DNA of 64,000 nt from Natrinema sp. DC36 (GTDB lineage: Archaea > Halobacteriota > Halobacteria > Halobacteriales > Natrialbaceae), in the NCBI RefSeq assembly GCF_020405225.1, contig NZ_CP084472.1, positions 3,286,001 through 3,350,000 on the forward strand, in the 5' to 3' direction. Shown in pieces: positions 10,202 through 14,348 of the stretch. Below the pieces are notes generated by a model. It was not told the origin of the DNA, ran no database searches, and was given only the letters and a program-made list of their open reading frames with translations. The translations under genes were made by a program, and so were the position numbers. Every line of letters begins with the position of its first letter. Within the stretch, counting starts at the first letter, position 1.

Positions 10202-12034
10202 TCAGTTCTCGAATCGGGCCTGAACGAACGGCTGAATGTCGTCGATATCGCTCAAACGGGAGTCGGAAAGCAACACGGCCTCCGTCTCTTCGAGTGGAAC
10301 GGAGAGACTGATTTCCTTCGTCCGGCCGTACCGACCTTTCGAGACGACGACGGCGTTGACGATGCCGAGCATGTCGAGTTCGCTGATGAGGTCCGTCACC
10401 CGACGCTGGGTCAGGACGTCCGCGTCGATCTCCTCGCAGAGGCGCTTATAGATGTTGAACACCTCGCCCGTGTTGATGCTGTGAACGCCGTTTTTCTCGA
10501 GCAGGATGATCGAGAAGAGCACGAGCTTGCTCTGTGTGGGGAGCGTGCGGACGACCTCGACGACGCGATCGAGTTCGATCTTGTCCTGGGCCTGCCGGAC
10601 GTGATCCTCCACGATCGTCTCGGCCTGCGATCGCTCGGCCAGCTCGCCGGCCGTTCGAAGCAAGTCGAGCGCGCGGCGCGCGTCGCCGTGTTCCTGTGCG
10701 GCGAAGGCCGCACACAGCGGGATGACGTCGTCGGAAAGCGCACCCCCCTGGAACGCGACGTCGGAACGGTGTTCCAGGATATCCCGTAGCTGATTCGCGT
10801 CGTACGGCGGGAAGACGATTTCCTCCTCGCCCAGCGATGATTTGACCCGCGGGTCGAGGAAATCGGTGAACTTCAGGTCGTTCGAGATGCCGATGATCGA
10901 CACCCGCGAGTTCTCGAGTTCGGAGTTCATCCGCGAGAGGTTGTAGAGCGTGTCGTCGCCGCTTTTCTCGACCAGTTTGTCGATCTCGTCGAGCATGATG
11001 ACGACGACCCGCTCGTCGTAGTCGACCGCGTCGAAGAAGACGCTGTAGACCCGGTCGGTCGGCCACCCGGTCATCGGAACCTCCTCGAAAGACTCCTTGT
11101 CCGCCTCGAGTTCGTCGATTTCGGCCTCGATCGCCTCGCGGTCCTCGAACGACGTCGACTCGAGGGGATGGTCCGATGGGTACGTCGACGAATCGCCAGC
11201 CGACGCGTCGCCGGTGCTGTTGCCGTCTGTCCGATCGGTATCGTCGCCGGCTCCCCGATCGGTGCTGTCGCCGTCCGTCAGACCAGTGCCGTCGGTGGGA
11301 CTCGAGCGATCGGCGGGATCCGAAGACCCCTTCCCTTCGGGTGGAGAATCGCCCGACTCGGATCGACTATCGTCTCCAGCTGAATCGCCAGCAATCGATT
11401 CCGGCGGGTCGTCAGCGACGAAATCGAACGGATCGGACGCCGTCTGATCGGCTGCCAGATCGGTCGACTCGGCCGACTCGGCCGCCTCACGTTCGCGGGC
11501 CTCTAGATCGGCGTCGTACTCGTCGAGGGCCTCGAGCAGCGATTCGAGTTCTGCGACGCGCTCGTCGATCCGCTCTTCGTTCTTTTCGATGAACTTGTTC
11601 GCAAGCTGTGCGAGGACGCGATACTGCGTATCGGTGACCTCGCAGTTGATGTACTCGACGTCACACGGGACGCTGTACTTCTGCGAGGTGCTCTCGAGTT
11701 CCTTGCTGACGAATTTCGCGCTGGCGGTTTTGCCGGTCCCGGTCTTCCCGTAGATGAGTATGTTCGACGGCGTTTCGCCCCTGAGTGCGGCGACGAGGAT
11801 CGTCGCCATCTTGTTGATCTGGTCGCTCCGGTGGGGCAGTTCGTGTGGGGTATAGGACGGACGGAGGACTTCCTTGTTCTCGAAAATCGGTTCGCCGCTG
11901 AGAAGATCGTCGAACAGCCCCTGATTCGACTCCTCGTCATCGAGGTCCGCCTTCTCGAGATTCGTCGAGAAACCGCTCGTTCCGTCGATCTCGACCTCGT
12001 CTGACCCGTCGATCTCTGAGTTGTCGTCTGACAT
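10202..12034 (-). CDS. orc1: Orc1/Cdc6 replication initiator
   Basis: This 610-residue AAA+ initiator binds origin recognition boxes and recruits MCM. Visible motifs are Walker A GKTGTGKTA (96-104), Walker B VVIMLDEID (344-352), sensor 1 GISND (382-386), sensor 2 GDARRALD (450-457) and a winged-helix DNA-binding domain from about 495. Archaeal Orc1 proteins usually have about 400 residues. The excess is a very acidic Ser/Asp/Thr-rich insertion between Walker A and B, about 175-290, where partners usually have a short loop. Its 5' end faces the AT-rich origin at 12035-13302, and an ORB-like element covers its promoter. This identifies it as the origin-linked, probably essential, Orc1. Confidence 0.95.
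   Translation of the reverse strand: MSDDNSEIDGSDEVEIDGTSGFSTNLEKADLDDEESNQGLFDDLLSGEPIFENKEVLRPSYTPHELPHRSDQINKMATILVAALRGETPSNILIYGKTGTGKTASAKFVSKELESTSQKYSVPCDVEYINCEVTDTQYRVLAQLANKFIEKNEERIDERVAELESLLEALDEYDADLEAREREAAESAESTDLAADQTASDPFDFVADDPPESIAGDSAGDDSRSESGDSPPEGKGSSDPADRSSPTDGTGLTDGDSTDRGAGDDTDRTDGNSTGDASAGDSSTYPSDHPLESTSFEDREAIEAEIDELEADKESFEEVPMTGWPTDRVYSVFFDAVDYDERVVVIMLDEIDKLVEKSGDDTLYNLSRMNSELENSRVSIIGISNDLKFTDFLDPRVKSSLGEEEIVFPPYDANQLRDILEHRSDVAFQGGALSDDVIPLCAAFAAQEHGDARRALDLLRTAGELAERSQAETIVEDHVRQAQDKIELDRVVEVVRTLPTQSKLVLFSIILLEKNGVHSINTGEVFNIYKRLCEEIDADVLTQRRVTDLISELDMLGIVNAVVVSKGRYGRTKEISLSVPLEETEAVLLSDSRLSDIDDIQPFVQARFEN
11327..11347 (-). promoter_or_regulatory. ORB-like element inside orc1
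   Basis: On the minus strand it reads CCACCCGAAGGGAAGGGG, similar to the origin boxes but with GGG in place of AAC. It encodes part of the acidic insertion near residue 231 of Orc1. The match is weaker than those in the DP1 gene. Confidence 0.3.
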
Positions 12035-12650: not shown

Positions 12651-12680
12651 CCCCCCACCCCTTTGTTTCGGGTGGAACAG
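12651..12680 (-). promoter_or_regulatory. Origin recognition box, left
   Basis: On the minus strand it reads TTCCACCCGAAACAAAGGGG followed by TGGGGGG. It shares the core CCAC-CGAAAC-AAGGGGTGGGGGG with the right box at 12981-13010. The inverted orientation and shared extended G-run mark these as the two principal Orc1 sites. Confidence 0.8.
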
Positions 12681-12760
12681 CCAGAAGGAGGGGAGGGGGT
12701 GAAACGGAGTTGTATCCAAGCGAAGCTTTATGTGGATAGCACAGAAAAGGTATCCGTAGT

Positions 12761-12868
12761 ACTAGCAGACAGTATCATATTACTAGGTTATCTGTTTATA
12801 TTACTAGGGCTAACTAGACTTTTCCCTTAGAGCTGTACAGACTACTAGACTACGGTCTTCGTTACTAG
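12761..12868. other. Phased array of six ACTAG words in the origin core
   Basis: CTAG occurs at 12762, 12783, 12804, 12814, 12845 and 12865, each preceded by A. Steps are 21, 21, 10, 31 and 20 bases, so all six fall near whole turns of B-DNA. CTAG is very rare elsewhere in this window (about twenty seen by eye in 64 kb). The segment lies between the two strong ORBs in the most AT-rich part. Confidence 0.85.
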
Positions 12869-12915: not shown

Positions 12916-12935
12916 TCTCGAGTCGAAAAAGGGGG
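12916..12935 (+). promoter_or_regulatory. Weak ORB-like element
   Basis: It reads TCTCGAGTCGAAAAAGGGGG, with the CGAAA core and G-run but lacking the CCAC half. It precedes the strong right box by 46 bases in the same orientation, so it may be a second, weaker site for cooperative binding. Confidence 0.4.
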
Positions 12936-12980: not shown

Positions 12981-13010
12981 CGTCTCCACTCGAAACGAAG
13001 GGGTGGGGGG
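12981..13010 (+). promoter_or_regulatory. Origin recognition box, right
   Basis: It reads CCACTCGAAACGAAGGGG then TGGGGGG. It pairs as an inverted partner with 12651-12680, about 300 bases away across the AT-rich core. Both G-runs face outward. Confidence 0.8.
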
Positions 13011-13302: not shown

Positions 13303-13941
13303 ATGGGACTATTCACAGAACTCAAAGATAGTATCTCTCGGGCTGCGGATCGCCTGTTTTCGGAACAGGAGCCCAAACGAATCGGTATCTACGGTCCGCC
13401 CAACGCCGGCAAAACGACGCTCGCAAACCGTATCGCGCGTGACTGGACCGGTGACGCAGTCGGTACGGAGAGTCACGTCCCTCACGAGACGCGTCGTGCA
13501 CGCCGGAAGGAAAACGTCGAGATCGAACGGGACGGGAAGACGGTGACCATCGATATCGTCGACACGCCCGGCGTGACGACGAAGGTCGATTACGAGGAGT
13601 TCACCGACGAGATGAACGAGGAAGACGCCATTCGTCGCTCCCGCGAAGCGACGGAGGGTGTCGCCGAGGCGATGCACTGGCTCCGCGAGGACGTCGACGG
13701 CGTTATCTACGTCCTGGATAGTGCGGAGGATCCGATCACGCAGGTCAATACGATGCTGATCGGCATCGTCGAATCCCGTGATCTCCCGGTGCTCATCTTC
13801 GCGAACAAGACCGACCTCGAGGAATCGAGCGTCAAGCGGATCGAGGACGCCTTTCCGCAGCACACGACCGTTCCCCTCTCTGCGAAGGAAGGAGAGAACA
13901 TGGACGAAGTGTACGGGAAGATCGCGGAGTACTTCGGGTGA
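13303..13941 (+). CDS. oapA: Origin-associated GTP-binding protein OapA
   Basis: A 212-residue Era/Obg-like small GTPase: G1 GPPNAGKT (31-38), G3 DTPG (87-90), G4 NKTD (168-171) and G5 SAK (193-195). The first 25 residues hold an amphipathic helix. The ATG at 13303 is chosen because GGAGG lies about ten bases upstream, and a TATA-like CTTAAG at 13241-13246 would give a leader of about 35 bases; the longer frame from 13246 is poor sequence. It is first in an oapA-oapB-oapC operon beside the origin, an arrangement known for haloarchaeal oriC1. The exact role is not established from sequence. Confidence 0.9.
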   Translation: MGLFTELKDSISRAADRLFSEQEPKRIGIYGPPNAGKTTLANRIARDWTGDAVGTESHVPHETRRARRKENVEIERDGKTVTIDIVDTPGVTTKVDYEEFTDEMNEEDAIRRSREATEGVAEAMHWLREDVDGVIYVLDSAEDPITQVNTMLIGIVESRDLPVLIFANKTDLEESSVKRIEDAFPQHTTVPLSAKEGENMDEVYGKIAEYFG

Positions 13942-13946
13942 TATCG

Positions 13947-14348
13947 ATGCCGAAAGCAACCAACGCAGACGATTCGGAGCCGGCCGACGGCGTACAGATC
14001 GACCTGATGAGCGGCGAGCGCATGGACGGCATGGCGACGATGGAGAAGATCAGAATGATCTTGGACGGCGTCCACGACGGCAACATCGTCATCCTCGAGG
14101 AAGGGTTGACGCCCGACGAGGAGAGCCGACTCATCGAGGTGACGATGGCCGAGATCAGTCCCGACGAGTTCAACGGGATCGAGATCGAGACCTATCCCAA
14201 GTCCGAGACCCGCGACTCGTCGTTGCTCGGCCGGATCATGGGCAGCGACGAGACGGAGGCGAAGCTGACGGTGATCGGACCGGCGAACCAGATCGAGACG
14301 CTCCACAAAGACGAAACGCTCATCAGCGCGCTCGTGTCCCGTAACTAA
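13947..14348 (+). CDS. oapB: Origin-associated protein OapB (DUF2073)
   Basis: A 133-residue protein matching the archaeal DUF2073 family, with the conserved block VQIDLMSGERMDGMATMEKI followed by ILDGVHDGNIVILEEGL. It is compact, without membrane segments. The ATG at 13947, five bases after the oapA stop, is preferred to a GTG overlapping that stop. It shares a one-base TAATG junction with oapC, so the three genes are translationally coupled. The DUF2073 family commonly sits beside this GTPase in archaea, which suggests a partner; the biochemical role is unknown. Confidence 0.88.
   Translation: MPKATNADDSEPADGVQIDLMSGERMDGMATMEKIRMILDGVHDGNIVILEEGLTPDEESRLIEVTMAEISPDEFNGIEIETYPKSETRDSSLLGRIMGSDETEAKLTVIGPANQIETLHKDETLISALVSRN

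Follow-up and report, generated by a model that had tools for sequence, protein, structure and literature searches.

Oriented, helically phased CTAG words in turn-quantised register with the right ORB of a predicted haloarchaeal oriC1

The window (the whole 64,000-nucleotide stretch of DNA that was analysed) carries, as judged from its sequence, a haloarchaeal oriC1 at which replication is predicted to start in vivo. Between the two inverted ORBs of this origin lie six CTAG words in one orientation and on one face of the helix, and across related species the distance from these words to the right ORB changes in steps of one helical turn. This turn-quantised distance was missed in the initial annotation of the sequence and is the most telling fact about the locus. 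That rotational register is kept despite changes in length suggests an origin built as a precisely oriented protein–DNA machine. We consider it probable that the words belong to a phase-locked nucleoprotein complex, in which proteins on the CTAG words are joined with Orc1 on the right ORB.

Gene order in the window is that of haloarchaeal oriC1. An orc1/cdc6 gene on the minus strand (10202..12034; NCBIfam NF001625 ORC1-type DNA replication protein, 653 bits with a cut-off of 501) is followed by the core and then, on the plus strand, by a small GTPase gene (13303..13941), which was used as the query to find orthologous origins, and by a gene of the OapB family of origin-associated proteins (13947..14348; PF09846). 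The left ORB (12653..12675, minus strand) and the right ORB (12986..13008, plus strand) belong to a 29-nt inverted repeat that is 90% complementary, with arms 308 nt apart and G-strings pointing outward, and they bound an AT-rich core in which AT content peaks at 0.72. A degenerate ORB (TCTCGAGTCGAAA) is found at 12916..12928 on the plus strand. Note that all three ORBs were called from sequence similarity, not from footprints. The 610-aa Orc1 protein of oriC1 contains an acidic insertion of ∼130 residues, rich in Asp, Ser and Thr, inside its AAA+ region, and family models match it in two pieces. A scan for bacterial-type promoters and terminators returned nothing above chance.

The CTAG words sit where the inter-ORB region is richest in AT, all within ACTAG and all on the plus strand, at 12762..12765 (site 1, ACTAGC), 12783..12786 (site 2, TTACTAGG), 12804..12807 (site 3, TTACTAGG), 12814..12817 (site 4, AACTAGA), 12845..12848 (site 5, CTACTAGA) and 12865..12868 (site 6, TTACTAGA). 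Offsets from site 1 are 0, 21, 42, 52, 83 and 103, and both the positions and the spacings of 21, 21, 10, 31 and 20 bp agree with the initial annotation. Site 1 is deeply conserved and lies inside a CCG block described below; site 2 falls at offset 20 or 21 in relatives; site 3 was used as the anchor for distance measurements, with site 4 one turn past it; and site 6 occurs chiefly in Natrinema and its near relatives.

About twenty further CTAG had been noticed in the 64 kb, and 21 were counted (27 in total). The chance expectation of roughly 200 given with that observation was too high, as dinucleotide-preserving shuffles yield 90 ± 8; CTAG is therefore depleted throughout the window except in the array. 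When clusters were counted over the 5.1-Mb genome, as the annotation had proposed, only one other place was found to have three successive ACTAG with gaps of 4–26 bp, and ∼10 places have three CTAG inside ∼60 bp, these values being derived from two gapped patterns only. Against shuffles of local composition for the inter-ORB segment, the six CTAG are only twice the mean of 3.1 (P=0.06), a comparison in which the words themselves shape the composition. The count alone was set aside as weak evidence, and the strong evidence thus lies in conservation across species and in spacing rather than in the count for a single sequence. Elsewhere in the same genome, six CTAG occur in 35 bp (L276:1621-1655; G000:C1:1104120-1104154) with spacings of 6, 4, 6, 5 and 10, which are not helically phased. 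This second origin-like CTAG cluster is located ∼1.3 kb before the matched part of another orc1/cdc6 gene.

For comparison, a search with the GTPase retrieved 80 orthologous loci, and 109 distinct Natrialbaceae origins were available in all. Membership in families (the Haloarculaceae genomes, and group f1 as Natrialbaceae) was assigned from named loci within the same groups. Because species share ancestry, the large values of n given below overstate independence. When inter-ORB segments from 50 Natrialbaceae were aligned with MAFFT, the CTAG words formed islands amid unalignable sequence. Information per base, calculated for 60 non-redundant origins, is 1.2–2.0 bits in the words and ∼0.3–0.5 in the intervening bases, where “2.0” for sites 3 and 4 arises by construction (the anchor demands CTAG there) and sites 1, 5 and the flanking TT/A are unconstrained. 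The preferred word is TTACTAGA in a single orientation, with an extra TT before and an A after CTAG.

Relative to site 3, CTAG is usually found at −91, −42, −22/−21, 0, +10, +41 and +61. The common sites other than −91 are in phase with R=0.966 at 10.35 bp, which falls to 0.844 once −91 is included; the word 91 bp before site 3 (TCTAGA) is conserved yet out of phase, and counts against the reading of these sites as an array. Using all CTAGs from 66 non-redundant Natrialbaceae origins (n=338 sites), the best period was 10.4 bp (R=0.855), with much weaker phasing for the rare extra CTAGs (R=0.33). The proposal that all six sites face one side of the helix was borne out, as was the test suggested for it, namely that phasing be kept while the bases between the words change, and the sites form a conserved, helically phased element of the origin core. 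The anchor pair is absent from 22 of the 109 distinct origins, Natronococcus among them. In Natronococcus (L050, L051, L053 and L077) the ORBs are retained, the phased array is gone and CTAGs are present at other positions instead, a recent loss that should be useful for testing function.

Distances from site 3 to the right ORB fall at 160–162, 169–172, 180–183, 191–194 and 213–214 bp, plus one at 101 bp, and so advance by one turn at a time. A scan of periods from 4 to 25 bp, performed without a prior, peaked at 10.3 bp (R=0.87) for the 43 named origins in which the effect was first seen. A held-out set of 44 further distinct origins from other genomes gave a peak at 10.2 bp (R=0.90). The degenerate ORB is phased to both partners, its distance from the array being mostly 91–93 or 111–114 bp (R=0.92) and its distance to the right ORB mostly 68–70 or 78–80 bp (R=0.94). 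As a control, the interval from the right ORB to the GTPase start has no periodicity (R=0.12, 75 distinct lengths in 86 origins). The turn class switches at least 16 times when 72 origins are placed on a protein tree, and 15 path-disjoint pairs of relatives that differ in length depart from uniform indel lengths with P=6e-5. Three of these 15 pairs (L027/L038, L054/L357 and L365/L049) are off a whole turn by 2.5–3.4 bp, and the turn rule should therefore be considered strong but not absolute. In Natrinema hispanicum CDM_6 (L017), the inter-ORB segment contains an apparent tandem duplication with a CTAG word, and the array-to-ORB distance exceeds that of its sisters by 31–32 bp, or three turns. 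A symmetric rule in which both ORBs are phased was rejected: distances from site 3 to the left ORB are nearly constant in Natrialbaceae (147–152 bp), in Haloarculaceae the left distances vary freely, and neither gives evidence for such a rule.

Upstream of and overlapping site 1 is a conserved block of the type AAACnnnnnCCGyAnnACTAG / AAACnnnnnCCGyACTAG (12745..12766, plus strand), which has a homologue in Haloarculaceae and in a few other haloarchaea. It is preceded by a conserved TATA-like box, TTTTAT/TTTAATA (12726..12732, plus strand), which follows a GAA(A)G tract and has a putative promoter role. The combined element, GAAAG-TTTAATA ... AAACCAAACCCGCACTAG at 12726-12766 of the window, is deeply conserved and common to the oriC1 of Natrialbaceae and Haloarculaceae, where the counterpart (L082, L080, L071, L066 and others) is located ∼75–125 bp inside the left ORB. 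In appearance it resembles an archaeal promoter that points rightward, or else a haloarchaeal counterpart of Sulfolobus ucm.

The oriC1 core of Haloarculaceae is rich in CTAG (5.5 seen versus 1.5 expected, 81 distinct origins), with sites neither phased (R=0.04, P=0.75) nor fixed in orientation. The phased array thus finds no support as a general rule, since Haloarculaceae are enriched but unphased and Halorussus has the CTAG methyltransferase and almost no CTAG in oriC1; the enzyme and the origin together are no guarantee of a phased array. Matches to the block were obtained in 55 of the 81 Haloarculaceae origins, and weak ones among them may be misplaced. Its distances to the right ORB are 149–151, 158–161, 170–173, 178, 181–184, 191–192 and 201–204 bp, with six longer. 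These distances are quantised (R=0.705, P=5e-5; P=2.5e-4 when any period of 5–25 is allowed) in a test on 18 values below 205 bp, collapsed by hand so that no genus contributed more than one value to a length class. Distances from the left ORB to the block in this family are not quantised, and because they drift, total ORB-to-ORB distance is not quantised either and was discarded as a measure. Six origins of other families gave block-to-right-ORB distances of 96–98, 107–110 and 118 bp, too few to test. As the Haloarculaceae block keeps its register with the right ORB although the CTAGs are unphased, phase locking of the core to this ORB may be older than the phased CTAG array.

How ORB-bound archaeal Orc1 brings about opening of the duplex and placement of MCM is, to our knowledge, not settled, and no protein is known to us that binds the words. 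The asymmetric consensus TTACTAGA, together with the register relative to the right ORB, points first to a protein-binding array, which CTAG methylation may modulate. In such a complex, putative protein-binding words in one orientation on one helix face of the AT-rich core of Natrialbaceae oriC1 would be held in fixed rotational register with Orc1 at the degenerate ORB and at the right ORB. Word-bound proteins and right-ORB Orc1 would touch or share one surface, the DNA between them being bent, wrapped or looped, and indels would be tolerated only near a whole number of turns. A stereospecific contact of this kind would impose strict whole-turn spacing over 160–250 bp to one ORB only. The complex would fix where the duplex opens or MCM is placed; protein binding, contact with Orc1, a role in opening or MCM loading and an effect of methylation are what we infer for it.

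The genome encodes a putative member of the orphan CTAG methyltransferase family, as the initial annotation had anticipated for haloarchaea (N4/N6 methyltransferase L088, with putative CTAG specificity). L088 is present in 338 of 391 genomes of the class and missing largely in one Haloferacaceae genus, a distribution that matches the one published for the CTAG orphan enzyme (PMC6471742), whose role is described there as open. Methylation of CTAG to m4C by this resident enzyme is very probable, and occupancy of the words may be sensitive to that modification, which would give methylation its importance here. Two further methyltransferase genes with identical scores, L086 and L087 (G000:C1:567064 and 638875), are 72 kb apart, and L086 adjoins a DNA polymerase-like ORF, which suggests a duplicated mobile element. 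In the 11 origins examined from genomes that lack the enzyme, CTAG is practically absent (0.09 versus 0.58 expected), and Halorussus and its relatives, which have it, carry few CTAG in oriC1 (1.25 versus 0.62). A CTAG-rich oriC1 therefore seems to depend on the enzyme, but the enzyme alone does not seem to be enough. Halorubrum was considered as a natural experiment in methyltransferase loss and was rejected, as most have no ORB pair upstream of the GTPase. In L042, L043, L069 and most of the Halorubrum-like loci among L096-L121, the 1.5 kb upstream of the retained GTPase contain no ORB pair; the origin has moved or decayed, or other ORBs are in use.

A link to methylation makes it possible, though short of probable, that the array serves for sequestration as in the Dam/SeqA system: the six sites, hemimethylated after firing, would be bound by a dimeric or polymeric reader, and re-initiation would be blocked until the m4C methyltransferase acts. 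The enzyme occurs in all Natrialbaceae listed, and their oriC1 has ∼6 CTAG where ∼2 are expected, an excess shared by Haloarculaceae and absent from the enzyme-less origins. Within genus g66, enzyme-less G343 has 0 CTAG in oriC1 and three relatives have 2–3. In Natrinema species, 97–99% of CTAG is modified (PMC6696651). SeqA in vitro requires sites on one face with a separation of two to three 10.4-bp turns (PMC5145175), a spacing that the array shares, and replication control was proposed by Blow et al. 2016 (PMC4752239). However, CTAG is palindromic and the conserved word TTACTAGA is not, Haloarculaceae combine the same enzyme and enrichment with no phasing, and Halorussus has the enzyme with hardly any CTAG. 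Haloferax volcanii grew without defect once the enzyme had been removed (PMC5867850). No SeqA-like reader is known, and sequestration alone would leave the register with the right ORB unexplained. The directionality of the word speaks for a protein that binds it directly, and its tie to the enzyme for methylation as a possible gate of the complex.

Transcription offers an unlikely account, in which the TATA-like box and the block form a promoter that drives rightward transcription of the core and the words serve transcription factors or a leader. It draws on the GAA(A)G-TTTTAT/TTTAATA box being kept ∼25–30 bp before CCG(y)A in both Natrialbaceae and Haloarculaceae, and it would account for site 1 and the block, but not for five further phased words or for turn-quantised spacing to an ORB 170–250 bp away. 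Without a dedicated binding protein, phased flexible TA steps in CTAG might bend or melt the region toward one side. The position of the array at the AT peak between the ORBs and the phase of its words are consistent with this mechanical reading, which we nonetheless regard as quite unlikely, for a specific word of 7–8 bases is conserved and not any TA step, TA is often lost too at lost sites 41 and −42 (small numbers), and Haloarculaceae CTAGs are unphased. An absence of functional phasing, with inherited spacing and a tendency of mutation to duplicate or delete 10 bp, was already disfavoured and is highly improbable: spacings within the array are indeed inherited and L017 resembles a tandem duplication, but the words remain distinct amid bases that have been randomised, one-turn steps occur in three separate intervals and not in a neighbouring one, and such steps recur in Haloarculaceae with other sequence. 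Slippage of a 10-bp tandem repeat was also considered, and no such repeat was found in the window region.

The preferred reading thus remains a phase-locked complex of word-bound proteins and right-ORB Orc1. We give roughly even chances to a broader form of it, in which oriC1 in general would be a phase-locked machine: a core element, joined in Natrialbaceae by the oriented CTAG array, would be held on a fixed face relative to Orc1 at the right ORB only, the core would evolve in one-turn steps, and initiation would proceed via a stereospecific asymmetric wrap or loop under epigenetic m4C control at the array. A rotational rule read from evolution tells which sites must face each other, and spacer lengths that step by one turn could serve to reveal phase-locked elements in further origins.

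CTAG clusters upstream of haloarchaeal orc1/cdc6 genes were reported to correlate with the conserved orphan m4C methyltransferase (Blow et al. 2016, PMC4752239, Fig 6D). The window is a case of these clusters, with the same motif, place and correlation with the methyltransferase, and the CTAG cluster by orc1/cdc6 is conserved in relatives; clustering and enzyme correlation are therefore not new. The available part of that paper treats motif density, to which orientation, the extended word TTACTAGA, helical phasing and ORB register are added here, and no earlier report of phasing, orientation or turn-quantised ORB spacing was found in the open-access literature. Accounts of haloarchaeal oriC1 (PMC3528665, PMC3936714) describe the same gene order, inverted ORBs, G-strings and AT-rich core, and CTAG is mentioned in neither; no helical spacing rule was found in their accessible portions.

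Like Dam/SeqA at E. coli oriC, the array is a cluster of an orphan methyltransferase motif in an origin, and its one-face spacing of one to three turns resembles the need of SeqA in vitro for sites two to three turns apart, the closest bacterial parallel in spacing (PMC5145175). The GATC sites of E. coli oriC are themselves unphased and disobey this in vitro rule (PMC5145175), whereas the words of the array share one direction and keep phase with an initiator site, with no reader protein known. The closest archaeal parallel is ucm with its binding protein UBP at Sulfolobus oriC1, where ucm is likewise a conserved sequence-specific element, located within the unwinding region that two initiator sites flank; ubp is described as a recent acquisition in Desulfurococcales and Sulfolobales, and CTAG is absent from the paper (PMC12141716). 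Sulfolobus has one ucm near the middle (PMC12141716), whereas the array has several phased words.
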